Origin: Burkholderiales bacterium | GTDB taxonomy: Bacteria; Pseudomonadota; Gammaproteobacteria; Burkholderiales; Burkholderiaceae_C | Assembly: GCA_030604135.1 (NCBI GenBank) | Contig: JAUVWL010000022.1 | Span: 1 to 64,000 of the forward strand | Reading direction: 5' to 3' | Length of the DNA: 64,000 nt | In this document: piece after piece, positions 2,627 to 52,600 of the stretch | Layout of the letters: each line of letters starts with the position of its first letter | Numbering within the stretch: position 1 is the stretch's first letter | Position numbers and translations under genes: made by a program | The notes under the pieces: generated by a model | What the model was told of the DNA's origin: nothing | The model's database searches: none | The model's input: only the letters and a program-made list of their open reading frames with translations

Positions 2627-3585
2627 AGGCGATGCTTCGGCGACTGGTGATGGGGGTGATCGTGCTGCTGGCGCTGCCGGTGCAGGCCGCCCTGCAGATC
2701 ACCGACGACAAGGGCGTGGTGGTGAACTTTGAGCGAGCGCCGCAGCGCATCGTGAGCCTACTGCCCTCGCTGGCCGAAACGGTGTGCGAGCTGGGGCACT
2801 GCCAGCGTCTGGTGGGTGTGGACCGCTACACCAACTGGCCCGAGAGCATCAAGGACCTGCCGCGCGTGGGCGGCGGGCTGGACCCGAACATCGAGCAGAT
2901 CGTGACGTTGCGGCCCGACGTGGTGCTGATGGCCACCTCGTCCCGCGCGGGGGACCGTTTGCGGGCGCTGGGCATCAAGGTGTTGGCGCTGGAGCCCAAG
3001 ACCCACGCCGACGTGCAGCGGGTGATGCTCAAGCTCGGTCAGTTGCTGGAGGTGCCGGACGCGCAGCGCATCTGGCGAGCCATCGACGCGGCGGTGATGG
3101 CGGCGGCCCAGTCGCTACCCCCCGGCGTGCGTGGCACGCGGGTCTATTTCGAGGTCAACCCCGGGCCGTACGCGGCGGGCGAGGGGTCCTTCATTGGCGA
3201 GACCCTGACCCGCCTGGGCGTGAAGAACATCGTGCCGGCCTCGCTTGGCCCCTTCCCCAAGCTCAACCCGGAGTACATCGTGCGCGCCAACCCGGACCTG
3301 ATCATGGTCGGCCAGCGCAGCGTGGACGGCATGATGCAGCGCCCCGGCTGGCACAGCCTGCGCGCCATGCGCGGGCAGCACCTGTGCGTCTTCCCAGCCG
3401 ACGAGTCCGACACCCTGGTGCGTCCGGGGCCGCGCATGGCCGAGGGCGCGCGCATCATGGCGCGCTGCCTGGCGGCCAAAGCACCAGGAGTGAAAAATAG
3501 CCCCCACGCTCCGCCGCTGCGCGGGTCGCTGCCCCCCAGGGGGGCTGATCCGGCTTGGGGCGGCCCTGCGCCGGATCGTTCATGA
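2623..3585 (+). CDS. btuF: Vitamin B12 ABC transporter substrate-binding protein, repeat-extended C-terminus
   Basis: Periplasmic corrinoid-binding protein for the BtuCD transporter encoded next to it. The ATG at 2623 overlaps the cobU stop. Residues 1-23 form a signal peptide with a basic start, a hydrophobic core and a VQA cleavage site. The mature protein begins ITDDKGVVVNFERAPQRIVSLLPS, with GHCQRLVGVDRYTNWP and a conserved C-terminal lobe ending around residue 290. The last 25 or so residues (SPHAPPLRGSLPPRG onward) are not BtuF sequence: they are a translation of the GC-rich repeat at 3501-3578, which has replaced or extended the native C-terminus. The protein is 320 residues, longer than usual by about that amount. 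Function of the transporter lobe regions appears intact. Confidence 0.9.
   Translation: MKAMLRRLVMGVIVLLALPVQAALQITDDKGVVVNFERAPQRIVSLLPSLAETVCELGHCQRLVGVDRYTNWPESIKDLPRVGGGLDPNIEQIVTLRPDVVLMATSSRAGDRLRALGIKVLALEPKTHADVQRVMLKLGQLLEVPDAQRIWRAIDAAVMAAAQSLPPGVRGTRVYFEVNPGPYAAGEGSFIGETLTRLGVKNIVPASLGPFPKLNPEYIVRANPDLIMVGQRSVDGMMQRPGWHSLRAMRGQHLCVFPADESDTLVRPGPRMAEGARIMARCLAAKAPGVKNSPHAPPLRGSLPPRGADPAWGGPAPDRS
3501..3578 (+). repeat. GC-rich palindromic repeat, copy A (3' end of btuF)
   Basis: A 78-base element opening CCCCCACGCTCCGCCGCTGC and containing the short palindrome CCCCCC-A-GGGGGG followed by GGCTTGGGGCGGCCCTGCG. It encodes the last residues of btuF and ends a few bases before its stop. 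Its reverse complement matches the copies at 46758-46835 and 51391-51466 almost base for base. Confidence 0.85.
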
Positions 3586-3595
3586 ACGACCGCGT

Positions 3596-4675
3596 ATGAA
3601 TTCGCGTCGCGCTTCCTGGTTGATCGTGTGCTTGTTGCTGGCGGCTGCCGGCCTGGCCGCGCTCGGCGTCAGCGTGGGCAGTGCCGGCTTCGAGAACCTG
3701 GTCGGCCCGCTGCTGAACCCGGGACTGGATCCGGACGCCACCGCCATGGCGCGGCAGATCGTGTTCGACATCCGCCTGCCGCGCACCCTGGGTGCCTGGG
3801 GGGCGGGCGCGCTGCTGGGGCTGGCTGGGGCCGTGGCGCAGGGACTGTTCCGCAACCCACTGGCGGACCCGTTCCTGCTGGGCAGTGCTTCGGGTGCCTC
3901 GCTTGGCGTTGCGCTGGCGCTGGCGGCACTGGGCGGAGGCGCAGGCATGCTGGGCGCCAGCATGATGAACAGCGGCGTCGCGGTGAGCGTGTTTTCCAGC
4001 AGCGTCTGGGTGCGCCTGGGCCTGACTGGCGCCGCTTTCGGTGGGGCTGTGTTGGCCGTGCTGCTGACCCTGACGCTCTCGCGCGGCGTTCAGCACACGC
4101 TGCGCCTGCTGCTGGCCGGTGTGGTGGTGGGTGTGGTGCTGGGCGCCATGACCCATCTGGTGCTGCTGTTTTCGCCCGAATCGCTGCAGGCCATGCAGGC
4201 CTTCATGCTGGGGTCCACCAGCTTTGTGGGCTGGACCGCTGCCGGCCTGATGGCGGGCGTGTGGGCTCTGTGCACGCTGGCGGCCTGGCTGTTGGCCCGT
4301 GTGCTTGATGGCCTGAGCCTGGGCGATGCCACCGCACGCAGCCTGGGCCTGCCGCTGGGACCCATGCGCGCGGCGCTGGTGGCGGTGCTGGCGCTGGCCA
4401 CCGGTACGGCCGTCGCACAGACCGGTCTGATCGCCTTCGTGGGCCTGGCGGCGCCACACCTGGTGCGTTCGCTGGTCAAGACGACCAGCAGCCGCCTGAT
4501 GCTGCTGGCCAGCTGCATGGGCGGCGCCCTGCTGATGGCGGCCGATACCTTGGCACGGTGGGTGATCGCACCCCAGGAACTGCCGGTGGGTGTGCTCACG
4601 GCGGTGCTCGGGGGCGGTTACCTGCTGTGGCTGATGCACCGCAGCACGCGGCTGGGCCGGGGAGGGGGCTTGTGA
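3596..4675 (+). CDS. btuC: Vitamin B12 ABC transporter permease (FecCD family)
   Basis: Inner-membrane permease of the B12 importer, 359 residues, about ten transmembrane segments. The first hydrophobic segment is at residues 7-25. Family landmarks are RLPRTLGAWGAGALLGLAG, GLFRNPLADPFLLGSASGAS near residues 78-97, the ATPase-contacting region DATARSLGL, and FVGLAAPHLVRSL. The ATG at 3596 lies 10 bases past the btuF stop; an ATG at 3582 runs into a stop after five codons. The start of btuD overlaps the stop as GTGA. Context (btuF before, btuD after, cobalamin genes around) makes corrinoid the substrate rather than iron-siderophore. Confidence 0.93.
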   Translation: MNSRRASWLIVCLLLAAAGLAALGVSVGSAGFENLVGPLLNPGLDPDATAMARQIVFDIRLPRTLGAWGAGALLGLAGAVAQGLFRNPLADPFLLGSASGASLGVALALAALGGGAGMLGASMMNSGVAVSVFSSSVWVRLGLTGAAFGGAVLAVLLTLTLSRGVQHTLRLLLAGVVVGVVLGAMTHLVLLFSPESLQAMQAFMLGSTSFVGWTAAGLMAGVWALCTLAAWLLARVLDGLSLGDATARSLGLPLGPMRAALVAVLALATGTAVAQTGLIAFVGLAAPHLVRSLVKTTSSRLMLLASCMGGALLMAADTLARWVIAPQELPVGVLTAVLGGGYLLWLMHRSTRLGRGGGL

Positions 4676-5475
4676 GCGCCACATCCGCACCCCACACACC
4701 TGCGCTCGAAGCGCGTGGTTTGGGCGTTCGATTCGGCGACGCTGCCATCCTGCACGGCATCACGCTGGCGCTGCCGCGCGCGCGCTGGACCAGCATCGTC
4801 GGGCCCAACGGCGCCGGCAAGTCCACCCTGCTCAAGGCCATGGCCGGCCTGCTGCCGCACAGCGGCACTTCGGTCCTGCTGGGTCAGCCGCTGCCCGACT
4901 GGCCGCACCGCCAGCGGGCGCAGCAGCTGTCGTGGCTGGGCCAGAACGAGGCCAGTGGCGACGATCTGACCGTTTGGGACGTGGCCATGCTCGGCCGCCT
5001 GCCACACCAGGCCTGGCTGAGCCCGCCCAGCGCCGCCGACCACGCTGCGGTGGAGCAGGCGTTGCGCGCCACCCAAGCCTGGGAGTGGCGGGCCCGTTCG
5101 CTCGGCCAGCTGTCCGGCGGCGAGCGCCAGCGCGTGCTGCTGGCCCGCGCCCTGGCGGTTCAGGCCCAGGTGCTGCTGATGGACGAACCCCTGGTCAACC
5201 TGGACCCGCCGCACCAGGCCGACTGGCTGTCCATCGTGCAGGCCCTGGTGCGCGAAGGCCGTACCGTGGTCAGTGTGCTTCACGAGATCGGCATGGCACT
5301 GCATGCCGACGAACTGGTGGTGATGGCGCAAGGCCGGATCACACATCAGGGCGCCTGCGCCGACCCCGCCACGCACCGCGCACTTGAAGCCGTGTTCGAC
5401 CACCGCGTGGCGGTGCGTGAACTGGACGGGCAGTGGGTGGCCTTGCCGCAGATGAAACCCTTGAACAGACCCTGA
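4672..5475 (+). CDS. btuD: Vitamin B12 ABC transporter ATP-binding protein
   Basis: Cytosolic ATPase subunit of the corrinoid importer, 267 residues. Walker [12 protein letters not shown] is at about residues 45-55, the ABC signature [15 protein letters not shown] precedes Walker [14 protein letters not shown], and the H-loop is VLHEIG. A GTG start at 4672 overlapping the btuC stop is preferred. The frame is open further upstream, but that stretch is inside btuC and has no family similarity. It completes the btuF-btuC-btuD set, tightly coupled inside the cobalamin operon. Confidence 0.93.
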
Positions 5476-5476
5476 A

Positions 5477-6046
5477 ATGCACATCGAAACACCCCCCATC
5501 GAGAAGCCTTACGATAAGCCAGAGGGCGAGCGTCGCGGTATCGTGATTGTCAACACTGGTGATGGCAAGGGCAAGAGCACGGCCGCCTTCGGTCTGGCGC
5601 TGCGCGCCCATGGCCGCGGCAAGGCCGTGAAGATCTACCAGTTCATGAAGGTGCCGTCGGCGCGATTCGGCGAGCACCGCATGTTCGAACAGATTGGTAT
5701 CCCGATCGAAGGTTTGGGGGACGGCTTCAGCTGGAAGAGTCAGGACCTGGAGCGCTCGGCTCAACTGGCGCGCGACGGCTGGGAGAGGGCGCGCGCCACC
5801 ATCCTGGCCGGCGAGCATTTCCTGGTGGTGCTGGACGAAGTCACCTACCCGCTGATCTACGGCTGGCTGCCGCTGGACGGTGTGCTGCAGACCTTGCGCG
5901 AGCGGCCCAGCCATGTGCACGTCTGCCTCACCGGCCGCCGCTGCCCGCCCGAGATCATCGATCTGGCCGACACCGTGACCGAGATGACCAAGATCAAGCA
6001 CGCGTTCAACGCCGGCATTCCCGCTCAACGAGGCATTGAAGACTGA
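5477..6046 (+). CDS. cobO: Corrinoid adenosyltransferase (CobO/BtuR/CobA type)
   Basis: ATP:co(I)rrinoid adenosyltransferase that attaches the upper 5'-deoxyadenosyl ligand in both de novo synthesis and salvage. It has 189 residues. The modified P-loop [13 protein letters not shown] lies at residues 27-39, followed by VKIYQFMK, the Walker-B-like [16 protein letters not shown], and [20 protein letters not shown]. The C-terminus [14 protein letters not shown] is the typical conserved tail. It starts one base after the btuD stop and is followed 16 bases later by bioB. Its identity is secure. Confidence 0.96.
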
Positions 6047-6062
6047 ACCCGGAGAGACACCC

Positions 6063-7070
6063 ATGAACAACGTTGTTGAATCCCCCGTGACCCTGCACCG
6101 CCCGGCCAAGACCGCACCGGCCACCGAAGGCCGCTGGTCGGTGGACGAGGTCAAGGCCCTGCTGGACCTGCCTTTCCCTGAGCTGATGCACCGCGCCCAG
6201 ACCGTGCACCGCGAGCACCACGACCCGACCCACATGGAGCTGGCGACGCTGCTGTCCATCAAGACCGGCGGCTGCCCGGAAGATTGTGGCTATTGCCCGC
6301 AGTCGGTCCACTACGAAACGGGGGTGGCGGCCAGCAAGATGATGACCGCCGAAGACGTGCGCGAAGCGGTGCTGGGCGCCAAGGCGGCCGGTGCCTCGCG
6401 CTTCTGCATGGGCGCCGCCTGGCGCGCGCCCAACGACCGCGATCTGGAGAAGGTCGAGGAACTGGTGCGCGTGGTCAAGGACGAGGGCCTGGAGGCCTGC
6501 TGCACCCTGGGCATGCTGACCGGCGACCAGGCCCAGCGCCTGAAGAACGCGGGACTGGACTACTACAACCACAACCTGGACACCGCGCCCGAGCTGTACG
6601 GTGACATCATCAGCACGCGCGACTACCAGGACCGCCTGGACACCCTGGGCCATGTGCGCGAGGCCGGCATCCACGTCTGCAGCGGCGGCATCGTCGGCAT
6701 GGGCGAATCGCGCGCCGGCCGCGCCGGCCTGATCGCGCAGCTGGCCAACCTCGAACCCTACCCCGAGTCGGTGCCGATCAACCACCTGGTCAAGGTGCCC
6801 GGCACGCCGCTGGCCGACGAGCCCGACCTCGATCCGCTGGAATTCGTGCGCACGGTGGCCGTGGCCCGCATCACCATGCCCAAGGCCAAGGTGCGCCTGT
6901 CGGCCGGGCGCCGGCAGATGGCCGAATCGACCCAGGTGCTGTGTTTCCTGGCCGGCGCGAACTCCATTTTTTACGGCGACAAGCTGCTGGTGACGGGCAA
7001 CGCCGATGTGGAGGCCGATCAGGCGCTCTTGAAGAAGATGGGCATGCACACCACCCGGGCGCACGCCTGA
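6063..7070 (+). CDS. bioB: Biotin synthase
   Basis: Radical S-adenosylmethionine enzyme inserting sulfur into dethiobiotin, the last step of biotin synthesis. The 335-residue protein has the radical-SAM cluster motif CPEDCGYC with cysteines at 71, 75 and 78, then [14 protein letters not shown] (auxiliary-cluster region), [24 protein letters not shown] and LSAGRRQM. The ATG at 6063 is preceded by a CCGGAGAGA ribosome binding region; an ATG nine codons upstream is in frame but less well placed. No other biotin gene is near. It lies inside the cobalamin operon, 16 bases after cobO and 7 before cbiB. Confidence 0.97.
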
Positions 7071-7077
7071 CCCGCAG

Positions 7078-8043
7078 ATGACCCTCGTCGGCCTGACCGT
7101 GCCTGACGCTGCTGTGCTGGCGGGCGCGGTGCTGGTCGGGCTGGGGCTGGACCTGGCGTTCGGCGAGCCGCCCGCGCGGGTGCATCCGGTGGTGGCGATG
7201 GGGCGTTATCTCGGCGCCGCGGGGCGGCGCGTGTCGCGTCCGGCTGGTGCGCAGGCGCGGCCGATGGTGGAGTTCTGGCGCGGCGCACTGGGCTGGAGTG
7301 TCGGTGCCGTGCTGGTGTCGGCCTTGGCAGTCGCGGCGGTGTGGGCGGTGCAAGGCCTGCACCCGCTGGCGCAGGCCGGGTTGCTCGGATTGCTGCTCAA
7401 GCCGATGTTCTCGTGGCGCATGCTGCGCGACGAGGTGGTGGCGGTCGAAGCCGCGCTGGCCGAATCGCTGGCCGCCGGTCGGCAGCGCGTGGGCTGGCTG
7501 GTCAGCCGCGATGTCACGGCGCTGAGCGACACCCAGGTGCGCGAAGCCGCGGTGTCCACGCTGGCCGAGAACCTCAACGATTCGGTGGTCGCGCCCCTGT
7601 TCTGGTTCGCCGTCGCCGGTCTGCCCGGCGCGGCGCTTTACCGCTTTGCCAACACCGCCGATGCGATGTGGGGCTACCGGGGCGAGCGCGGCGGGCGCGA
7701 CTGGACCTGGGCCGGCAAGTGGGCCGCGCGCGCGGACGACGCGCTGTCCTGGCTGCCCGCACGCCTCACAGCGCTGCTGATCGCGCTGCCGACGGTGGGA
7801 CGCGGCTGGTCGGTCGTGGTCGCCAACGCCGGCCGCACGCCATCGCCCAACGGCGGCTGGCCCATGGGTGCGCTGGCCGTGGGCCTGGGCATCCGGCTGG
7901 GCAAGCCGGGTGTGTACGAACTCAACGCCCAGGGTAGGGCGCCGGTGGCGGGCGACACGGCACAGGCGCTGCGGCGCTGTGGCCAGGTGGTGGCCCTGCT
8001 GTCCGTGGTGGCGGCTTCGGTGGTCGCGGGGGCCCTGGCATGA
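7078..8043 (+). CDS. cbiB: Adenosylcobinamide-phosphate synthase (CbiB/CobD)
   Basis: Membrane enzyme attaching (R)-1-amino-2-propanol phosphate to adenosylcobyric acid. It is named cobD in the Pseudomonas denitrificans scheme. The 321-residue protein starts with a hydrophobic segment and DLAFGEPPARVHPVVAMG, the family hallmark near residue 25-45, followed by QAGLLGLLLKP, RDVTALSDTQVREAAVSTLAEN (written here in part: STLAENLNDSVVAPLFW), ANTADAMWGYRG, and a C-terminal hydrophobic helix. Seven bases separate it from bioB and the stop overlaps the next start as ATGA. Confidence 0.95.
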   Translation: MTLVGLTVPDAAVLAGAVLVGLGLDLAFGEPPARVHPVVAMGRYLGAAGRRVSRPAGAQARPMVEFWRGALGWSVGAVLVSALAVAAVWAVQGLHPLAQAGLLGLLLKPMFSWRMLRDEVVAVEAALAESLAAGRQRVGWLVSRDVTALSDTQVREAAVSTLAENLNDSVVAPLFWFAVAGLPGAALYRFANTADAMWGYRGERGGRDWTWAGKWAARADDALSWLPARLTALLIALPTVGRGWSVVVANAGRTPSPNGGWPMGALAVGLGIRLGKPGVYELNAQGRAPVAGDTAQALRRCGQVVALLSVVAASVVAGALA

Positions 8044-9032
8044 CGCCGCGCATCCATGGCGGAACCGACGCGCTGGGGCCTGTGCGCTGGGATTTCTCCA
8101 GCAACGCCAACGCCTGCGGCCCGTGCCCTGCGGCCCTGCAAGCGGTGCAGCGGGCCAACGCGGCGCATTACCCCGACCCGACCTACACCCGGCTGCGGGC
8201 CGCCCTGGCGGACCTGCACGGCGTGGACCCGGTGCGCGTGCTGCTGGTCGCCAGCGCAAGCGAAGGCATCCAGCGCATCACCGGATGGCGCTGGCGCGCG
8301 GGCGACCGCCGTTGCTGGACCCCGCCGCACGCGTATGGCGACTACGCGCACGCCGCCTCGGCCTGGGGGCTGGAGCGGGTGAACGAAGCCGGGCTGGCGC
8401 CACTGGCCTGGCTCTGCGACCCGGGCAGCCCGCTGGGGCAGGGCGAATCGCCCGATGCCGTGAAGGCCTTGCTGGACCACACGCCGCGCACCGTGGTGCT
8501 CGACCGGGCCTACGCGCCGCTGCGGCTCAAGGGCGACAGCGCCCTGAACGCGGCGCAGCTCGACCGCGTCTGGCAACTGTGGTCGCCCAACAAGGCGCTG
8601 GGCCTGACGGGCGTGCGCGCGGCGTACGCCATTGCACCGCTGGGTGCGCACGCCGACAGGGTCGAACTGGAGGCGCTGTCCGCTTCCTGGCCCATCGGTG
8701 CGCACGGCGAGGCCATGCTGATGGCCTGGGCGCAGCCCGGGGTGCAGGACTGGGTGGGCGACAGCCGGGCCACGCTGGCCGAATGGGCTGAGGCCCTGCG
8801 CGACCTGCTGGTACGCCACGGATGGACCTGTGCCCCCAGCGACACCGCCTATGGCTGTGCCAAGCCGCCGCAGGCGCTGGACGCCGCGGCCCTGCGCGCG
8901 CAAGGCATCAAATTGCGCGATGCCACCTCGTTCGGCCTGCCGGGCTGGTGGCGCCTGAGTGCGCAGCGGCCCGAGGCACTGGCCGCGCTGGACGCGGCGC
9001 TCGACGAACTGCAACGGGAGACTTCGCGATGA
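8040..9032 (+). CDS. cobD: Threonine-phosphate decarboxylase (CobD/CobC, class I aminotransferase fold)
   Basis: PLP enzyme making (R)-1-amino-2-propanol O-2-phosphate from L-threonine O-3-phosphate for CbiB. It has 330 residues, with the opening RIHGGTDALGPVRWDFSSNAN, ASASEGIQRI, VLDRAYAPLRL and the PLP lysine at residue 185 in SPNKALGLTGVRAAYA. The name differs between nomenclatures (CobD in Salmonella, CobC in Pseudomonas). It is translationally coupled to cbiB upstream and to cobQ downstream, each by a 4-base ATGA overlap. The direct neighbour cbiB uses its product, which supports this role over a histidinol-phosphate aminotransferase. Confidence 0.9.
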   Translation: MTPRIHGGTDALGPVRWDFSSNANACGPCPAALQAVQRANAAHYPDPTYTRLRAALADLHGVDPVRVLLVASASEGIQRITGWRWRAGDRRCWTPPHAYGDYAHAASAWGLERVNEAGLAPLAWLCDPGSPLGQGESPDAVKALLDHTPRTVVLDRAYAPLRLKGDSALNAAQLDRVWQLWSPNKALGLTGVRAAYAIAPLGAHADRVELEALSASWPIGAHGEAMLMAWAQPGVQDWVGDSRATLAEWAEALRDLLVRHGWTCAPSDTAYGCAKPPQALDAAALRAQGIKLRDATSFGLPGWWRLSAQRPEALAALDAALDELQRETSR

Positions 9033-10651
9033 CTGCGGTCTGTGTGATGGTGCTGGGCACGACCAGCGGTGCTGGCAAAAGCTGGCTGACCACGGCACTG
9101 TGCCGCCATTACGCGCGCCAGGGTCTCAAGGTGGCGCCGTTCAAGGCGCAGAACATGTCCAACAATGCTCGCGTGGTCGCCGGCGTTTCGGGCGGGCAGG
9201 GTGAAATCGGAAGTGCCCAGTACTTCCAGTCGCTGGCTGCCCAAGCCGAACCCGATGTCCGCATGAACCCGCTGCTGCTCAAGCCCGAGGCCGACACGCG
9301 CAGCCAGGTGGTGCTGTTGGGTGAGGTCAGTCGCGAGCTCAGCGACATGCCCTGGCGCGGCCGCAGCGAAAAGGTCTGGCCGCACATCACGGCGGCCCTT
9401 GATGCCCTGCGCGCGGAGAACGATGTGGTGGTGATCGAGGGTGCGGGTTCGCCGGCCGAAATCAACTTGCACGCCAGCGACATCGTCAACATGCGCGTGG
9501 CGCGCCACGCGCAGGCGCGCTGCCTGCTGTTGACCGACATCGACCGTGGCGGCGCATTCGCTCACTTGTACGGCACCTGGGCGCTGCTGCCCGAGGACGA
9601 GCGCGCGCTCATCAAAGGCTTCGTGCTCAACAAGTTCAGGGGCGACGCGGCGCTGCTGGCGCCCGCTCCGCAGATGCTGCAGGACCTGACCGGCGTGCCG
9701 GTGGTCGCCACCCTGCCGATGTGGAGGCAGCACGGTCTGCCTGAAGAAGACGGTGTGTTCGATATGACCCCCACGCTCGGCACTGGCGTGTCCTCGCTGC
9801 CCCCCAAGGGGGCGCGTTTCGCCTTGGGGCGGCCCGGCGGCGAAACCATGACCCCCACGCTCGGCACTGGCGTGTCCTCGCTGCCCCCCGAGGGGGAGCG
9901 TTTCGCCTTGGGGCGGCCCGGCGGCGAAACCATGACAAGTCGTGAGTGGACGACCATCGCCGTCGTCGCCTGGCCACGCATCAGCAACCTCGACGAGTTC
10001 CAGCCGCTCAAGAACGTGCCGGGCGTGCGTCTGGTGTGGGCGCGCACGCCGGCCGACTGCGCGGGCGCGGACTGGATCGTGCTTCCGGGCTCGAAATCCA
10101 CCGCGGCCGATCTGGCCTGGCTGCGCGCGCAGGGGCTGGACCGTGCGGTGGCCGAACATGCGGCGCAGGGCGGGGTGGTGCTGGGCATCTGCGGCGGCCT
10201 GCAGGTGCTGGGCGAGGCGCTGATCGATACCCACGGCATCGACGGCAATGCGCCCGGTCTGGGCCTGCTTCCGCTGGTGACGACCTTCGATGCGGACAAG
10301 ACCGTGTGCCGCACCACCGCGACTTTTGGCGAACTGTGTGGTCCCTGGCAGGCGCTCTCGGGTGTCACTGCCTCGGGTTACGAAATCCACCACGGCCAGA
10401 CGGCACCACACCCGGCCATGGCCGCCCAAGGCGATGTCGCGCGCGAAGTCATGCCCCGCCTGGCCTGGCAGAACGCGGCCGGCAACGTGCTGGGCTGTTA
10501 CCTGCACGGCCTGTTCGAGGACCCGGCGGTGCTGCGTGCGCTGTTCGGCGCCAACGTGCCCACTTTGGAGACCGTGTTCGACGGCCTGGCCGATTTTCTG
10601 GAACACCATGTCGAACCCGGTGTTCTGCAAGCCCTCATTCACAAGGACTGA
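9029..10651 (+). CDS. cobQ: Cobyric acid synthase with in-frame repeat insertion
   Basis: Amidates the b, d, e and g side chains of adenosylcobyrinate a,c-diamide using glutamine and ATP. The N-terminal ATPase domain has GTTSGAGKSW at residues 10-19, KAQNMSNNARV, VIEGAGSPAEINL and DIDRGGAFA. The glutaminase domain begins TTIAVVAWPRISNLDEF and contains LPGSKSTAADLAWL, the nucleophile Cys in GICGGLQVLG, and a distal His in GYEIHHG. At 540 residues it is about 55 longer than usual. The surplus is residues 246-301, two tandem 28-residue units starting MTPTLGTGVSSLPP, encoded by the repeat at 9764-9931 and lying exactly in the linker between the two domains. The reading frame is intact, so the enzyme is probably functional. 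Confidence 0.95.
   Translation: MTAVCVMVLGTTSGAGKSWLTTALCRHYARQGLKVAPFKAQNMSNNARVVAGVSGGQGEIGSAQYFQSLAAQAEPDVRMNPLLLKPEADTRSQVVLLGEVSRELSDMPWRGRSEKVWPHITAALDALRAENDVVVIEGAGSPAEINLHASDIVNMRVARHAQARCLLLTDIDRGGAFAHLYGTWALLPEDERALIKGFVLNKFRGDAALLAPAPQMLQDLTGVPVVATLPMWRQHGLPEEDGVFDMTPTLGTGVSSLPPKGARFALGRPGGETMTPTLGTGVSSLPPEGERFALGRPGGETMTSREWTTIAVVAWPRISNLDEFQPLKNVPGVRLVWARTPADCAGADWIVLPGSKSTAADLAWLRAQGLDRAVAEHAAQGGVVLGICGGLQVLGEALIDTHGIDGNAPGLGLLPLVTTFDADKTVCRTTATFGELCGPWQALSGVTASGYEIHHGQTAPHPAMAAQGDVAREVMPRLAWQNAAGNVLGCYLHGLFEDPAVLRALFGANVPTLETVFDGLADFLEHHVEPGVLQALIHKD
9764..9931 (+). repeat. Tandem 84-bp repeat pair inside cobQ (copies B and C)
   Basis: Two head-to-tail 84-base units (9764-9847 and 9848-9931), each opening ATGACCCCCACGCTCGG, with the core CCCCCC(A/G)AGGGGG and the end TTGGGGCGGCCCGGCGGCG. 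The units differ at only two bases, giving Lys/Glu and Ala/Glu changes. Each is 28 codons, so the cobQ frame is kept. The core and the TTGGGGCGGCC block are shared with the copies at 3501, 46758 and 51391, but the 5' half (GGCACTGGCGTGTCCTCG) is a divergent variant. Confidence 0.9.
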
Positions 10652-10654
10652 ACC

Positions 10655-11713: not shown

Positions 11714-11717
11714 GGGT

Positions 11718-13084: not shown

Positions 13085-13126
13085 GAGGGTGATGGGCTGG
13101 GCGCCGGCTTGGGTTACAACCTCGGC

Positions 13127-14395: not shown

Positions 14396-14397
14396 GG

Positions 14398-15999: not shown

Positions 16000-16001
16000 G
16001 C

Positions 16002-18003: not shown

Positions 18004-18008
18004 CCACC

Positions 18009-37358: not shown

Positions 37359-37419
37359 CCTTACAATTCTAGGGTGCAGACCGCCCCTGGCCTGCCGCGA
37401 AATCAGGAGACAAGCACAT

Positions 37420-37971: not shown

Positions 37972-37983
37972 CAGGAAGCTGTC

Positions 37984-39632: not shown

Positions 39633-39641
39633 CGAAACCGT

Positions 39642-39956: not shown

Positions 39957-40038
39957 GTGCCGGGAGTTTAATCGCTACCGCATTCCGAAACGCCGCCACG
40001 GGCTGCTGCCTCGTGGCGGATCGATATGCGGTGGAAGC

Positions 40039-41346
<1,308 letters not shown>

Positions 41347-41372
41347 TCAAAAAAGAAAGCAGGACAGGGCGC

Positions 41373-41663: not shown

Positions 41664-41671
41664 GGTCGGAT

Positions 41672-42526: not shown

Positions 42527-42540
42527 GAGTGGTGTCTCCG

Positions 42541-44241
<1,701 letters not shown>

Positions 44242-44330
44242 TTATAGGCGGCGGGGCAGGGAGGGCCGTCCGTCTGCAGGTCCAGCTGGAGTCTCGATGG
44301 TTGGGGTTCACCCTCTGTTACATTGCGCGC

Positions 44331-45566
44331 ATGAAGGATCTGGCCGGCAAGCACATTGTTCTCGGGCTCTCGGGCGGCATCGCCTGCTACAAAGCGGCCG
44401 AACTGTGCCGCGCGCTCATCAAGGCGGGCGCCTCGGTGCAGGTGGTGATGACCGAGGCGGCGGGCCAGTTCATCACCCCAGTGACCATGCAGGCCCTGTC
44501 GGGACGCCCTGTTTTCAGCTCGCAGTGGGATGAGCGCACTTCGGGTGGCATCGACAACAACATGCCGCACATCAACCTCAGCCGGGAGGCCGATGCGATT
44601 GTGGTGGCACCGGCCAGCGCCGACTTCATGGCCAAGCTGTTGCACGGCCGGGCCGATGACCTGCTGAGCCTGATGTGCCTGGCCAGGCCCCTGGAGTCGG
44701 TGCCGCTGGTACTGGCACCGGCCATGAACCGCGAAATGTGGGCCCACCCGGCCACCCAGCGCAACGTGGCACAGCTGCGGGCCGATGGCGCCACGGTGCT
44801 GGACGTGGGGGTGGGGGACCAGGCCTGCGGCGAAAGTGGTGATGGCCGCATGCTGGAACCCGAGGAGCTGCTGTATGAGCTGACGCGCTTTTTCACGCCC
44901 AAGCTGCTGGCGGGCCAGCATGTGCTGGTGAGCGCGGGTCCGACCTTCGAGGCCATCGACCCGGTGCGGGGTCTGACCAACCTGTCCAGTGGCAAGATGG
45001 GCTTTGCCATTGCCCGCGCGGCGCATGAAGCCGGCGCCCAGGTCACGCTGGTGGCAGGACCCGTGGCCTTGCCAACACCGCGCGGTGTCGGCCGTATCAA
45101 CGTGAAGTCGGCGCTGAACATGCAAAAGACGCTGAACGTGCTGGCGCAGACCTGCAGCGTGTTCGTCTCGGCAGCGGCGGTGGCCGACTGGCGGCCGGTC
45201 AGCGAATCCACACAGAAGATCAAGAAGGACGGCAGTGGCGCTGTGCCGACGCTGTCGTTCGTCGAGAACCCGGACATCCTGGCCGGCATTGCGGCCAGCG
45301 CGCGGGCCCAGAGTGGCGCCCTTTATTGCGTGGGCTTTGCGGCCGAGAGCCATGACCTGGCCGAGAACGCCCAGGTCAAGCGGTTGCGCAAGGGTGTGCC
45401 ATTGCTGGTGGGCAATATCGGACCGGATACCTTCGGGCAGGATGACAACGCCTTGTTGCTGGTGGATGAACAGGGCAGCACCGAGCTGCCGAGGGCCAGC
45501 AAGCTTTCTCTGGCGCGGCAGCTGATACAGGAAATCGCTAGGCGCTTGCCCGCAGCGGCCACCTGA
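44331..45566 (+). CDS. coaBC: Bifunctional phosphopantothenoylcysteine decarboxylase / phosphopantothenate--cysteine ligase
   Basis: Coenzyme A synthesis, 411 residues from the ATG at 44331. The FMN-dependent CoaC half has LGLSGGIACYKAAEL, the catalytic His in NMPHINLSR, APAMNREMW and the active Cys in DQACGESGDGRM. The CoaB half has SAGPTFEAIDPVRGLTNLSSGKMG, SAAAVADWRP, KIKK and VGFAAES. Upstream in-frame codons are not conserved. A GC stem (GCGCGC at 45569-45574 and 45581-45586 region) follows the stop and overlaps the next promoter. Confidence 0.95.
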   Translation: MKDLAGKHIVLGLSGGIACYKAAELCRALIKAGASVQVVMTEAAGQFITPVTMQALSGRPVFSSQWDERTSGGIDNNMPHINLSREADAIVVAPASADFMAKLLHGRADDLLSLMCLARPLESVPLVLAPAMNREMWAHPATQRNVAQLRADGATVLDVGVGDQACGESGDGRMLEPEELLYELTRFFTPKLLAGQHVLVSAGPTFEAIDPVRGLTNLSSGKMGFAIARAAHEAGAQVTLVAGPVALPTPRGVGRINVKSALNMQKTLNVLAQTCSVFVSAAAVADWRPVSESTQKIKKDGSGAVPTLSFVENPDILAGIAASARAQSGALYCVGFAAESHDLAENAQVKRLRKGVPLLVGNIGPDTFGQDDNALLLVDEQGSTELPRASKLSLARQLIQEIARRLPAAAT

Positions 45567-45572
45567 GCGCGC

Positions 45573-45625
45573 TTGTCCCCGCGCGCAGCTGGCGCTATGA
45601 TCCTCAGAATAAGTAATTGCTTATT
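45573..45625 (+). promoter_or_regulatory. Promoter with overlapping AT-rich dyad before the hydrolase gene
   Basis: TTGTCC (45573-45578) and TATGAT (45596-45601) are spaced by 17 bases, a good sigma-70-type arrangement. Seven bases past the -10, where transcription would begin, lies AATAAGTAATTGCTTATT (45608-45625), an 18-base dyad matching at 8 of 9 pairs and very AT-rich for this region. This is a typical place for a repressor operator. The regulator is not identifiable from the window. Confidence 0.6.
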
Positions 45626-45651
45626 TGTGGATTGAGGCCGAGGAGACTGCC

Positions 45652-46713
45652 ATGATCGAGGAACAAGCGTCCCAGACCCGGTGGGACGATAAGGGTATGC
45701 GCCACAACCGCCGCCGATGGTTGGGCATCACGGCAGGTTTGGGGCTCGGGGCCGTTGCCCTGGCGGCTGTACCCGAGGTTCGGGTGTTTGCCCGTCAGCT
45801 GCAGGACTTCATTGAAGGTCCGCCGGTCCCGGACATCCGGCCGGAGCGGCTTTCGGACCACGTCTGGATGATTTATTCCAGGGACGGTTTTCCGACACCG
45901 GAGAACCAGGGCATGATGGCCAATGTGCTGTTTGCCATCACGCGCGAAGGCGTGGTCGTCATGGACAGTGGCGGTTCGCTGCAAATCGGCGAAATGGCCA
46001 TTCGCATGATCCGATCCGTCACGGACAAGCCGGTGGTGGCGGTGCTCAACAGCCACTACCACGGTGATCACTGGCTGGGCAACCACGCTTTCACCAACGC
46101 TTTTGGCAAGGACTTGCCCATCTACGCCCTGGGCCACACCGTGGAGCAGATCAAGGGCCACGAGGGCAATCTCTGGCGCAGCCTGATGGAGCGCTGGACC
46201 AACCAGGCTACCATGGGTACCCAGGTGGTGGCACCCAACCGGGTGGTTGAGCACGGCCAGGTGCTCGATTTCGGTGATGTGCAAATCCGTCTTCACCACT
46301 ACGGACAGGCGCACACGCCGTCCGACCTGTGCATGGAGGTGGTTCAGGACCGCCTCACCTATGTCGGCGACATTGCCATGGAGAACCGCATCGCCAACAT
46401 GGACGATGGCTCCTACCCCGGCACGTTCAAGTACTACGAGGAACTCAAACGAGCCGCAGGAGAGCAGGACTGGGTGCCCGGGCACGGCCGTGGCAGCAAA
46501 AGCCTGCTGGACAGCTATGGGACCTTCATGCGGGGTATCTGGGAGCCCTGTGTGCAGGCCGTCAAGGACGGTGTTCCCCTCGACGGTGCCAAGGCGCTGG
46601 TGTTGAAAGACCCCCGAGTGGCCAGCCGGGCCGCCAACATGGACGGCTTCGACAGCAACATTGGCAAGTACACCAGCCTGGCCTACCTGGAGGCCGAAAA
46701 AGAAGCCTTCTGA
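45652..46713 (+). CDS. Tat-exported metallo-beta-lactamase-fold hydrolase
   Basis: A 353-residue zinc hydrolase. Near the N-terminus NRRRWLGITAGLGLG (about residues 19-33) reads as a twin-arginine signal, so the folded enzyme is likely exported to the periplasm. The MBL core has the metal motif SHYHGDHWLGN (H-x-H-x-D-H), a distal His in HYGQAHTPSDL, YVGDIAMENR, and a third His in VPGHGRGS. The pattern is close to SoxH-type and other exported MBL proteins; the substrate is unknown. The ATG at 45652 has AGGAG 8 bases upstream, and an in-frame TTG/ATG region further up overlaps the dyad. Confidence 0.85.
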   Translation: MIEEQASQTRWDDKGMRHNRRRWLGITAGLGLGAVALAAVPEVRVFARQLQDFIEGPPVPDIRPERLSDHVWMIYSRDGFPTPENQGMMANVLFAITREGVVVMDSGGSLQIGEMAIRMIRSVTDKPVVAVLNSHYHGDHWLGNHAFTNAFGKDLPIYALGHTVEQIKGHEGNLWRSLMERWTNQATMGTQVVAPNRVVEHGQVLDFGDVQIRLHHYGQAHTPSDLCMEVVQDRLTYVGDIAMENRIANMDDGSYPGTFKYYEELKRAAGEQDWVPGHGRGSKSLLDSYGTFMRGIWEPCVQAVKDGVPLDGAKALVLKDPRVASRAANMDGFDSNIGKYTSLAYLEAEKEAF

Positions 46714-46725
46714 CCGGGCTCAAAC

Positions 46726-46835
46726 CCACGCAGCGGCGCAGCGTGGGGGCGCAGGAGCCCGGCGCAGGGCCGCCCCAAGCCGGGTTCGCACCCCCTCGGG
46801 GGGCAGCGACCCGCGCAGCGGCGGAGCGTGGGGGC
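46726..46835 (-). repeat. GC-rich palindromic repeat, compound intergenic copy (D and partial E)
   Basis: Read on the minus strand, a full copy runs 46835 to about 46758: CCCCCACGCTCCGCCGCTGC, GGGTCGCTGCCCCCCGAGGG, GGCTTGGGGCGGCCCTGCGC. It is followed at 46749-46726 by a second, truncated start CCCCCACGCTGCGCCGCTGC. The full copy begins two bases beyond the ppk2 stop codon. Nothing else is seen in this gap. Confidence 0.85.
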
Positions 46836-46836
46836 A

Positions 46837-48114
46837 CTAGAGTATCGCGCTTCCCGGCTGTTCACCTCGCTCGTAGACCACGTGAGCGCGCCCGACAATC
46901 AGTGAATCCAGGGTGCCGATGTTGCTGCTGTCCTTGTTCGTGTAGGGCAGCTTCTGCAACACATACCGCATGGCGTTGAGGCGTGCCCGCTTCTTGCAAT
47001 CGCTCTTGATCACTGTCCATGGCGCATCGGCGGTGTCCGTCTCGAAGAACATCGCCTCCTTGGCCTTGGTGTAGTCGTCCCATTTGTCCAGGCTGGCCAT
47101 GTCGATGGGGCTGAGCTTCCATTGTTTGAGGGGGTGGGCCTTGCGCTCCTTGAAGCGGCGGCGCTGCTCCTCGCGGCTCACCGAGAACCAGAACTTGATC
47201 AGGTGAACACCGCTGCGCACCAGATGGCGCTCGAACTGCGGAGCCTGGCGCATGAACTCCTGGTATTCCTCGTCGGTGCAGAACCCCATGACGCGTTCCA
47301 CCCCGGCCCGGTTGTACCAACTGCGATCGAACAGCACGATTTCTCCCGCCGTCGGCAGGTGTTGCACATAGCGCTGGAAGTACCATTGACCTCTTTCGAC
47401 CTCGGTGGGTTTTTCCAGGGCCACCACACGTGCGCCCCGTGGGTTGAGGTGTTCCATGAAACGCTTGATGGTGCCCCCTTTGCCAGCCGCATCGCGGCCC
47501 TCGAAGAGAATCACCACCCGCTGCCCGGTGTCCTTGGCCCAGGCCTGCAGCTTCAGCAGCTCGACCTGAAGCAGGTATTTCTGGGCTTCATAGACGCGTC
47601 TGGACAGCAGGTTCTTGTAGGGGTAGGCACCGCTGCGCCAGTCTTTGGCCAGTTGCTCGTCCGGGTTGACTTCCAGCTTGGCGCTGCGTTGCCTGGCCTT
47701 GGTTTCGCCCTTGATCAGCTGCCGGATGGCCTTGGCGTCATCGGGAGCGGCGCCCTCCAGAATGGCGCGCAGCGATTCGGCCTTGGTCGCTGCATCCGTT
47801 TGCGGCTTTGACAGGATGTCGCGTACGGCCGCCAACTGCCCTGCCTGCCGAGCAGCCACGCTTTGCTTGACCGACGCCTTGCGGATTTGAGCGGGACGTT
47901 GGCTGCCAGTGACGTCGCCGAGACTGACACGTCGAGGCTTTTCGACGGCTTCGGTGGCGGCCTCCGTCCTCGGCTTTGCGTTGGTCGAGCGCTTCCTAGT
48001 GGCACCCGTTACCGTTGCCGTATCGCCCGCCCGAACCGCAGACCGGCGCCTGGCGCTCGCATTTGTTGCAGCAGATTCGCCAGGGTTGGAGGGGCGGGTG
48101 GTGCGCTCGGCCAT
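46837..48114 (-). CDS. ppk2: Polyphosphate kinase 2 with long basic N-terminal extension
   Basis: Transfers phosphate between polyphosphate and nucleotides. The protein has 425 residues. The kinase core begins about residue 155 (KDWRSGAYPYKNLLSRRVYE) with Walker A FEGRDAAGKGGTIKRF, Walker B FDRSWYNRAG, and lid RRRFKERKAHPLKQWKLS, typical of single-domain class I PPK2. The first roughly 140 residues are low-complexity, rich in Ala, Arg, Lys, Ser and Thr, like histone-H1-type tails, and are not part of the enzyme. The TAG stop is followed after two bases by a repeat copy. Confidence 0.93.
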   Translation of the reverse strand: MAERTTRPSNPGESAATNASARRRSAVRAGDTATVTGATRKRSTNAKPRTEAATEAVEKPRRVSLGDVTGSQRPAQIRKASVKQSVAARQAGQLAAVRDILSKPQTDAATKAESLRAILEGAAPDDAKAIRQLIKGETKARQRSAKLEVNPDEQLAKDWRSGAYPYKNLLSRRVYEAQKYLLQVELLKLQAWAKDTGQRVVILFEGRDAAGKGGTIKRFMEHLNPRGARVVALEKPTEVERGQWYFQRYVQHLPTAGEIVLFDRSWYNRAGVERVMGFCTDEEYQEFMRQAPQFERHLVRSGVHLIKFWFSVSREEQRRRFKERKAHPLKQWKLSPIDMASLDKWDDYTKAKEAMFFETDTADAPWTVIKSDCKKRARLNAMRYVLQKLPYTNKDSSNIGTLDSLIVGRAHVVYERGEQPGSAIL

Positions 48115-48249
48115 GCTTTGTCATCCTTCCAGAGAGAATCCATCCATTGTCCTCGCATGACACTTTGATGACTTGACAAATATCAAGCCGATCGGGCGTC
48201 GACTGAACTTGCCCACAGCCGCGCGACACAGCCAGCATGACCGAGGGAA

Positions 48250-49587
48250 TCAGAGCTTCTTGACCAGCACCAGACTCTTGCGGTCCCAGTTGTACTTGCG
48301 CTTTCGCGCCTCCGGCAGCCACTCGGGACTGACTTGCGAGAAACCGCGCTTGAGGAACCAGTGCAGTGTCCGGGTGGTGAGCACAAAAATGCTCTGCAGA
48401 CCCTGGGCTCGGGCACGCGACTCGATGCGCTTGAGCAGCCGCTCGCCGTCGCCCTGGCTTTGCGACTGGGGCGACACCGTCAGGGCCGCCATCTCTCCCG
48501 TGCGTTCTTCCGGGTAGGGATAGAGCGCCGCGCAACCGAAGATCACGCCGTCGTGTTCAATGATGGTGTAGTAGCCGGCGTCGCGTTCAATTTCGGTGCG
48601 GTCGCGTTTGACGAGGGTGCCATCCTTCTCGAAGGGTTCGATCAGGGCCACGATGCCACCGACATCGTCCATGGTGGCTTCCCGCACGCTCTCGAGCTTT
48701 TCGTCGACCACCATGGTGCCGATGCCGTCGTGCACATAGATTTCGAGCAGCAGCGAACCGTCGAGTGCAAAGGGAATGATATGGCTGCGTTCGACACCGC
48801 CTTCGCAGGCGCGGATGCAGTGCTGGAGGTAAAAGCCGGTGTCGGTGGGTACGGTGGGCGCGGGCAGGCTGCCCAGCAGGCGCTTGGCATCGGCCAGGGG
48901 CAGTTCGGTGTCGATGTCGCTTTGCGGGTCTGCCGTATCGACCCGGATGCCGGGCACCTCCGTCATGAAGATGAGCTTGTCGGTCTGCAGGGCAACCGCC
49001 ACCGAGGTGGCCACGTCCTCCATGCTGAGGTTGAATGCCTCCCCGGTCGGTGAAAAGCCGAAGGGTGAAATCAGCACCAGCGCGCCCAGGTCCAGCGTGC
49101 GCTGGATCCCCTCGGTGTCGACCTTGCGCACGAGCCCGGAGTGAAGGAAATCGACGCCATCAATCACACCGACCGGACGCGCGGTGATGAAGTTGCCGGA
49201 GATCACGCGCACGCGGGCACCGGCCATCGGGGTGTTGGGCAGTCCCTGGCTGAAAGCCGCCTCGATTTCGTAGCGCAGCTGACCGGCGGCTTCCTGTGCG
49301 CAATCCAGCGCCACTTCGTCGGTGATGCGCATGCCGTGCGAATACCGGGCCTCTTGCCCCTTCAGGCGCAGTTGCTCGTTGACCTGCGGTCGAAAGCCAT
49401 GCACCAGCACGATCTTCACGCCCATGGCCTGGATCATGGCGATGTCCTGGGCGATCGAGGCCAGCTTGCCCGCCGCAATGGCTTCACCCGTCAGGCCGAT
49501 GACGAAAGTCTGGTGCCTGAACTTGTGGATGTACGGTGCCACCGATCGGAACCAGGGCACGAAGGTGAAGTTGAAAACGGTGGACAT
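48250..49587 (-). CDS. argA: Amino-acid N-acetyltransferase (N-acetylglutamate synthase)
   Basis: First step of arginine synthesis, 445 residues from the ATG at 49587. The N-terminal amino-acid-kinase-like regulatory domain (MSTVFNFTFVPWFRSVAPYI onward; KIVLVHGFRPQVNEQL, SGNFITARPVG, LVLISPFGFSPTGEAFNL) is followed by a GNAT acetyltransferase domain from about residue 295 (VREATMDDVGGIVALIEPFE, CAALYPYPEERTGEMAALTV, WFLKRGFSQ). This is the classical long ArgA type with arginine feedback expected. It is divergent from hrpA. Confidence 0.95.
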   Translation of the reverse strand: MSTVFNFTFVPWFRSVAPYIHKFRHQTFVIGLTGEAIAAGKLASIAQDIAMIQAMGVKIVLVHGFRPQVNEQLRLKGQEARYSHGMRITDEVALDCAQEAAGQLRYEIEAAFSQGLPNTPMAGARVRVISGNFITARPVGVIDGVDFLHSGLVRKVDTEGIQRTLDLGALVLISPFGFSPTGEAFNLSMEDVATSVAVALQTDKLIFMTEVPGIRVDTADPQSDIDTELPLADAKRLLGSLPAPTVPTDTGFYLQHCIRACEGGVERSHIIPFALDGSLLLEIYVHDGIGTMVVDEKLESVREATMDDVGGIVALIEPFEKDGTLVKRDRTEIERDAGYYTIIEHDGVIFGCAALYPYPEERTGEMAALTVSPQSQSQGDGERLLKRIESRARAQGLQSIFVLTTRTLHWFLKRGFSQVSPEWLPEARKRKYNWDRKSLVLVKKL

Positions 49588-49671
49588 TGGCGGGCAGACG
49601 TGGGACCGGGTACGGGCAGGTGGGAGGACAGGGATAATTGCCGGTTGCCCGATTTTGACCGAAGTTCCATC

Positions 49672-52600
49672 TTGACCGCTGCCCGTCTGCACCTGGAGTT
49701 CCCCGAATCGCTGCCTGTCTCTGCCCGCCGGCACGAGATCGAGGCGGCGCTGCGCGAACACCAGGTGGTCATCGTCTGTGGCGAAACCGGTTCGGGCAAG
49801 ACCACCCAGTTGCCCAAGATCGCGCTGGCGATGGGCCGGGGACGCTGCAACGCGGCGCCGGGTGAGCGCGGACGGTTGATCGGCCACACCCAGCCGCGGC
49901 GGATTGCCGCCAGTTCGGTGGCCAAGCGCATCGCCGAAGAACTGCAGACCCCGCTGGGGCAGGTGGTGGGCTACAAGGTGCGTTTCCAGGACCGACTGAG
50001 CAAGGATGCCTCGGTCAAGCTGATGACCGACGGCATCCTGCTCGCCGAAACCCAGACCGACCCAGACCTCAAGGCCTACGATACGCTGATCATCGACGAG
50101 GCGCACGAGCGCAGCCTCAACATCGACTTCCTGCTGGGCTACATCCGCCAACTGCTGCCGCGCAGACCGGACCTGAAAGTCATCGTCACCTCGGCCACCA
50201 TTGACGCCGACCGCTTCGCCCGCTATTTCGCCTCTTCCAGAGGGGCCGCACCGGTACTCATGGTATCGGGCCGCACCTTTCCCGTGGAGGTGCGCTACCG
50301 GCCATTCGAGGAGAGCCGTGACTACGATCTCAACCATGCGATCGCGGACGGTGTGGATGAACTGTGGCGTGGTGGCGCAGGCCAGGGCGGCGACATCCTC
50401 GTTTTTCTGCCCGGCGAGCGTGAGATCCGCGAAGCCGCCGACCACCTGCGCAAGCACCTGTCACACCAGCCGGTGCTGCGCAACGCCGAGGTACTGCCCC
50501 TGTTCGCCCGCCTGTCGCAGGCCGAGCAAGAGCGCATCTTCCAGCCCCACGGCCAGCGCCGCATCGTGCTGTCAACCAACGTGGCCGAGACCTCGCTGAC
50601 GGTGCCGGGCATCCGGTTCGTCATCGACGCAGGCACAGCGCGGGTCAAACGCTACAGTCTGCGCCAGAAGGTCGAGCAGTTGCTGGTCGAGCCGATCAGC
50701 CAGGCCGCGGCCAACCAGCGGGCCGGTCGCTGCGGTCGGGTGGCCGACGGCATTTGCATTCGGCTGTACGACGAGGCCAGCTTCAACAGCCGTCCCCGTT
50801 TCACCGACCCGGAGATCCTGCGCAGTTCACTGGCCGGCGTGATCCTGCGCATGAAGGCGCTGCACCTGGGATCGGTAGAGCATTTTGCCTTCATCGAGCC
50901 GCCCACGGGGCGTGCGATTGCCGATGGCTACCAGCTGCTGGCCGAACTGGGCGCGGTGGACGAGGCCAATGAGCTGACCGAGATCGGGCGGGCACTGGCT
51001 CGGCTGCCACTCGATCCGCGCGTGGGCCGCATGATCCTGGAGGCGCGCCAGCGCGGTGCCCTGGACGAGGTGCTGGTGGTGGCCGCTGCGCTGTCGGTGC
51101 AGGACGTGCGCGACCGCCCGCTGGACAAACAGACCCAGGCCGACCAGGCGCACAAGAAGTTCGACGACGACAAGAGCGAGTTCACCGCCACGCTCAAGCT
51201 CTGGAAATGGCTGGAGGACAGCAGGGGAGGCCACGGCACCGACCACAAGCTCAGCCACCGCCAGTATGAAAACCTGCTGCGCGAGAACTTCATCAACGTG
51301 CGGCGCGTGCGCGAGTGGCGCGACATCCATTCGCAGCTGCACACCGTGGTGGCCGAACAGGGGTGGAAGGCCTCTGTGCAGCCGGCCCGCCCGGCGCCGG
51401 GCAGCCCCAAGCCGGGAGATGCCCCCTCGGGGGGCAGCGACCCGCGCGGCGGCGGAGCGTGGGGGCCAGCCACCTATGATCAGCTGCACCTGTCCATGCT
51501 CGCCGGCCTGCTGGGCAACATCGGCTGCAAGAGCGACACCGAGGACTGGTACCTCGGCGCGCGTGGGATCAAGTTCCACCGCCACCCCGGCGCCAACCTC
51601 AGCAAAAAACCCGGCCGCTGGATCGTCTGCGCCGAGCTGGTGGAAACCACGCGCCTGTTCGGTCGCGGCATCGCGGCCATAGAGCCGCAGTGGCTGGAGC
51701 AGGTCGGATCCCATTTGCTGAAAAAGCAGGTGCTTGACCCGCACTGGGAAAAGAAGGCGGGCCGGGTCAGCGCCTACGAGCGCGCCACGCTGTATGGGCT
51801 GGTGGTCTACCAGCAGCGACGCGTCGACTACAGCAAAGTGGATCCAGCCGGTGCGCGTGAGCTGTTCGTCCGCGAGGCTCTGGTGGGTCATCTGCACGAG
51901 GACACCTGGGACAGCAAGCTGCCCTTCCTGGCAGCCAACCGCCGCACCGTGCGCGAGGTGCAGGACCTGGAGCACAAGGCGCGCCGGCAGGACGTGCTGG
52001 TGGATGACGAGCTGATCTATGCCTTCTATGACCAGCAAGTTCCGCCCGATGTCAGCAACGGCGTCGCTTTCGAGCGCTGGTACCGCGATGCGTCGAGAGG
52101 CCACCCAAAGCTGCTGTTTCTGACCCGCGAAGAATTGATGCGCCACGAGGCCGCGGGCATCACCACCCAGGCCTACCCCAGGACAATCCGCCTGGGGGGC
52201 GTGGACTGCGCCGCCACCTACCTGCACGAACCGGGCGACCCGCGCGACGGCGTGAGCGTGACGGTACCCATCTTCGCGCTCAACCAGGTCAGCGAGGACC
52301 GCTGCGAGTGGCTGGTGCCGGGCATGCTCAAGGACAAGGTGCAGGCCTTGCTCAAGACCCTGCACCAGCGTCCGCGCTCGCGCCTGGTGCCGCTGCCGGC
52401 CACCGCCGAGAAGATGACCGAGGCCCTGTGCCAACCCGAGATTTTCGCCAGCGGCAACCTGATGGACGCGCTGCTTCGGCTGGTGCGTGAGGCCACGCAG
52501 TTGCCGGTGCAGCGCAACGACATCAAGGTGGACATGCTGCCGGCCCACCACTTCATGCACCTGCGGGTGGTGGACGAGCACGGGCGTCAGCTGGGTCAGG

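Follow-up and report, generated by a model that had tools for sequence, protein, structure and literature searches.

The first 64,000 nucleotides of contig JAUVWL010000022.1, from the Burkholderiales bacterium assembly GCA_030604135.1 and referred to here as the window, carry several copies of a GC-rich palindromic repeat of about 80 nt, both within genes and beyond their ends. The question raised by this locus is what the repeats are, how they became dispersed and why they are kept. A reading of the sequence alone had noticed them and likened them to the palindromic elements of Rickettsia; its observation is confirmed, and its interpretation is partly supported. The main habitat of the repeat, which the sequence-only reading missed, is directly behind stop codons, in the sense orientation. 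On balance, we favor the view that the repeat is a non-autonomous mobile element with a defined structure, very probably the Beta-proteobacterial repeat element (BRE), and that it may be kept as an mRNA hairpin behind the stop codon, much like the repetitive extragenic palindromes (REPs) of Escherichia coli.

Copy number and host range

The exact head of the unit, CCCCCACGCTCNGC, is found at 75 places in the assembly to which the window belongs (3.98 Mb in 51 contigs), against 1 for a reversed control pattern. A covariance model made from 34 units of this genome returned at least 124 matches in it at E<=0.01, which is a lower bound because only 150 of 5421 candidates were scored. All 12 scanned genomes of the genus have matches, 6 to 120 in each. 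In the host family, where at most 23 candidates were scored per genome, 165 of 200 genomes have them, representing 122 of 141 genera. The proposal of a dispersed palindromic family with many copies is thereby borne out, and the refuting condition that only the copies in the window exist is excluded.

Beyond the host family, eight genomes from other families of the order gave no match, an Achromobacter genome gave 29, and the Achromobacter family has some in 54 of 151 genomes. In a class-wide scan, the only 2 genomes with matches among 274 belong to the host's genus; this draw, of whose 272 matchless genomes 20 were listed, including one from the host's family, sets no bound on the range because of the matches in the Achromobacter family. 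Among the matches listed for an exact stretch of 37 bases, the record titles name Hydrogenophaga more often than any other genus, with Acidovorax, Rhodoferax, Polaromonas, Variovorax, Xylophilus, Curvibacter and Achromobacter ruhlandii as further titles. With one unit as the query, 2 of 72,556 plasmid records and 0 of 50,697 phage records were matched.

Placement behind stop codons

For the work on placement we used a pattern finder of our own, which catches 100 full units in 65 arrays of the window's genome. Twelve of these arrays lie at contig ends, 18 are in genes, 2 overlap the end of a gene, and 33 stand outside genes with an upstream neighbor. Of this last group, 24 start 0-15 nt past a stop codon on the same strand, compared with 265 of 2640 random intergenic points (10.0%). 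The other genomes were represented by 114 loci, with Achromobacter loci left out, and here the same holds for 58 of 71 arrays outside genes, against 329 of 4372 random intergenic points (7.5%), in a set that favors canonical copies because its loci were picked by exact pattern. Ten of the 104 arrays have their 3' end within 30 nt of a stop on the opposite strand alone. The 82 stop-proximal arrays include two pairs that each represent one site in two genomes, and in 38 of the 82 the setting is operon-like, with a codirectional gene no more than 60 nt downstream. The only intergenic copy seen in an independently annotated record, that of an Acidovorax plasmid, runs antisense, and a stop on the other strand lies about 10 nt from its end. 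Taken over all 161 placed arrays, 49 are inside genes and the majority are outside.

At five loci (L008, L014, L016, L040 and L041) a second repeat, roughly GTCACTCCCGCG..CGCGGGAGTCCA, is found close downstream of the arrays; it is reminiscent of the dRS3-type repeats of Neisseria.

Anatomy and folding of the unit

Matches to the model in the window's genome measure about 78-83 nt and the tandem period is around 84, with units in arrays of this genome spaced 75-90 nt apart, mostly 82-87. Each unit opens with a conserved head, CCCCCACGC. Three hairpins follow: A is variable, B (GCTGCCCCCC..GGGGGC) is almost invariant, and C is long and again variable. The last of these consists of a left arm, a conserved stretch, CTTGGGGCGGCCCGGCG, that contains the short stem D as a cap, and a matching right arm. 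A few extra bases then link the right arm to the next unit, and arrays often close with a partial head.

The arms of these hairpins covary. Across 167 distinct stems, 84% of the cells of stem C are Watson-Crick pairs, as against 43% after the right arms are re-dealt, and 85 of the 167 are perfect over 7 bp while carrying 41 different arms. In 34 units of the window's genome, 8 of 20 pairs show changes on both sides, against a shuffled mean of 5.2. A set of 37 units from two families, in which four helices are named, has two-sided changes in 14 of 22 pairs (shuffled mean 9.8) and 93.6% of its cells paired, compared with 79.6% on shuffling and no more than 58.7% with a slid structure. In the Achromobacter family, stem A is swapped for very different pairs and stem D passes from GGG/CCC to GAG/CTC. 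Several subtypes occur in one genome of A. ruhlandii (L284-L291), where canonical units of the Comamonadaceae kind (L287), which may be recent arrivals, are found beside units with a very different hairpin A.

Copies in the window and inside genes

All five copies and the partial copy that had been claimed for the window are present, and the boundaries of the full units given here are those of the covariance model. The first unit (3501..3579, + strand) supplies the greater part of the final 28 codons, SPHAPPLRGSLPPRGADPAWGGPAPDRS, in the gene for a BtuF-like periplasmic binding protein (2623..3585, +), whose called end falls within the repeat. The gene for cobyric acid synthase, cobQ (8822..10651, +), hosts two tandem units in the sense orientation, at 9768..9848, which is in frame, and at 9852..9932 (both +), corresponding to an 84-nt duplication of 9764-9847 as 9848-9931. 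Inside hrpA (49069..53682, +) there is a full unit in frame and antisense to the gene (51386..51465, -). Its start falls near residue 772, which is about where the best-matching segment against the HrpA profile stops, at residue 774. These are the three loci that had been placed within reading frames, and all three do lie within frames as called. The remaining full unit (46754..46834, -) starts 2 nt past the stop codon of a polyphosphate kinase 2 (PPK2) gene on the same strand (46837..47835, -), and its array is closed by the partial copy, a head only, at 46726..46749 (-).

The core TCGCTGCCCCCCNNGGGGG, with up to three mismatches allowed, has five matches in the window, all of them exact; the mean over 100 shuffles was 1.35, with as many as 5 in a single shuffle. 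Taken by itself, the loop motif with two mismatches has 9 matches in the window against 9.13 by chance and so no excess, and the window is without a match in Rfam at gathering thresholds. The statement that the repeat contains almost no stop triplet holds only moderately. In its favor, all six frames are open in 31 of 100 units of the window's genome and five of the six in 56, with 0.88 stop triplets per unit against 1.24 on shuffling; one sense frame, however, has a stop in 45 of the 100.

The 49 in-gene arrays comprise 21 in the sense and 28 in the antisense orientation, in keeping with the claim that copies enter genes on both strands without breaking them. They are not read in nearly any frame, as had been supposed, since 37 of the 49 keep to one frame per strand: PHAPPLRGSLPPEGA... 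or a close variant in 16 of the 21 sense arrays, and AGPPQGE.APSGGSDPRSGGAWG or a close variant in 21 of the 28 antisense arrays. Independent sites number at most 45, as a single RecG site accounts for four antisense arrays and a single cobQ site for two sense arrays; on collapsing these the count becomes 34 of 45. By eye, L010 and L065 apparently share one further in-gene site. The spacing of tandem units is a multiple of three in 10 of 12 cases within genes and in 19 of 32 at stops; a frame rule on spacing was considered and dropped, the numbers being too small for such a claim. The RecG site, confirmed by profile, carries the same antisense unit in an Acidovorax, a Xylophilus and two metagenome-assembled genomes (L062, L076, L094 and L129); either the insertion predates these genera or an allele has been transferred.

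Filled and empty sites in relatives

Two loci that are filled in the window's genome are empty in relatives, which in this respect is behavior like that of the Rickettsia palindromic elements. For the cobQ linker, a search of 40 genomes of the genus yielded 30 loci, with a readable linker in 29 of them. Seven of the 29 hold 1 to 3 in-frame units, 21 have a short linker of the DDRTRASGAV type, and L218 has a probable remnant of a unit. In two alleles (L205 and L223) both arms of stem C differ from those of the window copy (L194), so that the peptide is changed and the pairs are kept. A tree of the cobQ flanks, with 28 rows of which 7 are filled (L200 being too short, L209 unread and L218 counted as empty), requires at least five changes between filled and empty states on well-supported branches. 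Five of the filled alleles have an unusual head in common, and the pattern reflects either repeated insertion or transfer of alleles.

At the junction of glyS and gmhB, both identified by profile in the window's genome, full units are present in 8 of 29 readable loci from 30, with four units in the window's genome and one in each of the seven others. In six of the single-unit loci, as read by eye, the unit starts 2-3 nt past the TGA; the distance is 11 nt in L227 and 12 nt in the window's genome. L225 retains only a head, and L243 has a unit tail that the pattern finder missed. In genome G005 (L244) stem C of the unit at this junction contains extra GC-rich hairpin sequence, as if a second element had entered.

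Contig ends fall within arrays in eleven contigs of the window's own assembly, G000 (C3, C4, C12, C13, C19, C20, C29, C36, C41, C44 and C47), indicating that the repeats break the assembly. They also account for odd Pro/Gly-rich inserts in conserved proteins, CobQ, HrpA and RecG among them.

Proposed role and its rivals

If the favored interpretation is right, copies would have spread through an activity acting in trans, after which arrays would grow and shrink by recombination between their repeated heads. The copies behind stop codons would be kept because their transcribed hairpins stand where the terminating ribosome meets 3' exonucleases, and there they would determine how stable the upstream message is or how much it yields, in many cases inside an operon. 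Copies in open frames would survive where the host frame yields a harmless Pro/Gly-rich peptide. More tentatively, it is possible that within the Comamonadaceae a mobile repeat has been turned into a family-wide cassette for 3'-end control that is either delivered to or retained in the few bases behind stop codons on the coding strand. Many operon genes across the family would then share one post-stop hairpin module acting on the terminating ribosome or on mRNA decay, with insertion possibly guided by the transcript or by translation termination rather than by DNA sequence.

A number of results weigh against a role as a post-stop hairpin. Minimum free energies are ordinary for sequences of such GC content (z -0.46 to -2.21 for seven units), three of the seven folded units adopt another fold, and an unguided RNAalifold consensus on MAFFT columns shows little covariation (term -0.51; two-sided changes in 3 of 20 pairs). 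Copies inside genes have 0.90-0.92 of their cells paired, against 0.83 at stops. A post-stop RNA role alone does not predict this better pairing, and the structure must therefore matter or arise apart from that role, either in spreading or through the correction of palindromes. In the Achromobacter family, for which the gene caller was retrained, only 11 of 44 arrays (11 of 43 distinct) are stop-proximal and their orientation is mixed. The caller itself is a home-made one that relies on codon usage, applied identically to test and control. No common target duplication, which along with terminal inverted repeats would mark a miniature inverted-repeat transposable element (MITE), was seen in the flanks, whether read by eye at cobQ and glyS-gmhB or tabulated at the 161 arrays, and the mover was not found, with none of 30 loci of REP-associated tyrosine transposases (RAYTs) having a unit in the stretches examined. 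The E. coli parallel is itself weakened by a newer count, given in PMC12306157, in which only 446 of the 4,072 REPs lie 15 nt or less from a stop codon.

An account without function would have the transposition machinery target coding-strand sites near stops, marked by a G before the head and a purine-rich flank, with copies persisting as they do little harm. The G at position -1 is indeed found in 76-81% of arrays across all three site classes, TAG is enriched among the stops next to arrays (20 of 82, against 119 of 1036 in all called genes), and occupancy at glyS-gmhB and cobQ is patchy. Nevertheless, an explanation by such an insertion preference seems somewhat unlikely, for the in-gene copies lack a strong orientation bias, which implies a machinery without coding-strand preference there, and no marked preference for stops is seen in the Achromobacter family. 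The pairing itself could be a mutational by-product, the arms covarying because replication corrects imperfect palindromes by copying one arm from the other. Pairing that is equal or better within genes, and is accompanied by changed protein residues, would fit this idea, which we nonetheless consider unlikely: the short stem D changes in step too, and on the sense strand of the element G-U cells (57) outnumber A-C cells (26), as expected if that strand folds, although the cells are not independent.

The other candidates are more easily set aside. An intrinsic terminator cassette would be suggested by the Achromobacter family, in which five or more of the 9 nt after hairpin B are T in 69% of 68 units (a single unit being counted twice); one was found to be terminator-like, where shuffles of this stretch would give 0.6. 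The T tract is, however, present in only 6% of 216 Comamonadaceae units, the operon-like setting of many stop-proximal arrays would make termination there polar, and orientation is mixed in the very family that has the tract, all of which makes this explanation improbable. Movement by a RAYT, as in classical REP systems, is less probable still. The RAYT genes described in PMC2817692 are flanked by their REPs; no unit was found at the 30 RAYT loci, which are the best of a larger number of matches in 200 genomes, nor at L043, in the stretches examined, and the repeat has no GTAG/CGTC tag. Against this, NF047646 has matches in 167 of the 200 family genomes, 57 of them above the cut-off, and the window's genome has one RAYT-like gene (L043:1240-2118), scoring 24.9 bits with PF01797 (cut-off 23) and 46 bits with NF047646 (cut-off 80). 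Its product, the only RAYT-like protein found in this genome, reads DRWMLL at the site of the HxH motif, which we take to be the one expected at the catalytic site; it looks degenerate there and is perhaps a domesticated transposase. Finally, the repeats might have been ancient protein segments, found at the same sites in distant genera. The one RecG site common to four loci, Acidovorax and Xylophilus among them, is of this kind. For the family as a whole, the idea is excluded by the many arrays outside genes and has a negligible probability, both strands and several frames being used and the cobQ copies keeping their base pairing while the peptide changes.

The significance of these findings is that a repeat that has been named but, as far as the literature searches show, hardly studied sits at stop codons with a precision of a few bases in several genera, and that its hairpins are kept through paired changes even where the repeat has become protein. 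It becomes testable whether the palindromes scattered through bacterial genomes influence the termination of translation and the ends of mRNAs, or whether these are simply places where they insert.

Relation to known repeat families

The repeat is very probably BRE, an assignment that we infer from the published description. BRE was named in 2011 without a function, and the passages that deal with it give units of 75-91 bp in Bordetella that are GC-rich and stand in tandem with no or few nucleotides between them (PMC3110155). They also give unit numbers that vary between genomes, a chromosomal and mostly intergenic location with some copies wholly in coding sequences, and hosts in Bordetella/Alcaligenaceae and the Comamonadaceae with up to 29 copies per genome (PMC3110155). 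A family of this kind had thus been described, contrary to the sequence-only reading. The present repeat agrees with it in unit length and tandem spacing, in its hosts (Hydrogenophaga, Acidovorax, Rhodoferax, Polaromonas and Variovorax as well as Achromobacter and its family), in its largely chromosomal and intergenic location, and in differing unit numbers per locus, as at cobQ and glyS-gmhB. It differs in copy number, its at least 124 copies exceeding the 29 reported. One genome (G553) has loci of three and two units with gene orientations as printed for B. avium BRE loci 12 and 11 in PMC3110155. About 31 kb from its three-unit locus is one unit between convergent genes, as at B. avium locus 13, where two are printed; two other single-copy loci fit B. 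avium locus 10 less clearly. In 28 loci, a motif search detected no lexA beside the copies; its presence would have linked them to a particular BRE locus. The BRE section of PMC3110155 is silent on structure, on placement relative to stop codons, on the frames used and on function, and the words 'stop codon' are absent from its main text. Our literature search did not find BRE by its full name beyond that paper, and searching for the literal sequence brought up only an unrelated paper; nor did literature searches find the placement and anatomy described for this family, even though the family itself has very probably been named already.

Rickettsia palindromic elements enter open frames, where they are translated into additional peptide. 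The likeness, drawn by description only, is borne out for the copies that lie in frame within genes; the main habitat here is behind stop codons, however, and the bacteria are different. With intrinsic terminators the repeat shares hairpin B and a T tract in many Achromobacter-family copies, whereas the tract is rare in Comamonadaceae copies and arrays often lie in operon-like gene pairs, so that in the host family the repeat is rarely terminator-like.

As a high-copy palindrome, the repeat resembles the REPs and bacterial interspersed mosaic elements of the Enterobacteria and Pseudomonads. It is not a classical REP, being about 80 nt long with four stems where a REP has 20-40 bp, and in place of a GTAG/CGTC tag it has the common head throughout the 37 aligned rows, one-base variants aside. 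REP-like families that lack terminal motifs are mentioned for Bordetellae in PMC3733652, as are GTAG REPs that can supply a stop codon and some REPs inside open reading frames. In E. coli, 260 of 496 REPs in an older count, to be set beside the newer one above, lie no more than 15 nt from a stop codon, and REPs less than 16 nt away are reported to lower translation (PMC12306157). In a corresponding manner, the hairpins described here begin within 15 nt of a stop in 24 of 33 and 58 of 71 arrays, and in 11 of 44 in the Achromobacter family. Because the distance window and the strand are the same, an action like that of the E. coli REPs is the leading idea for what this repeat may do.

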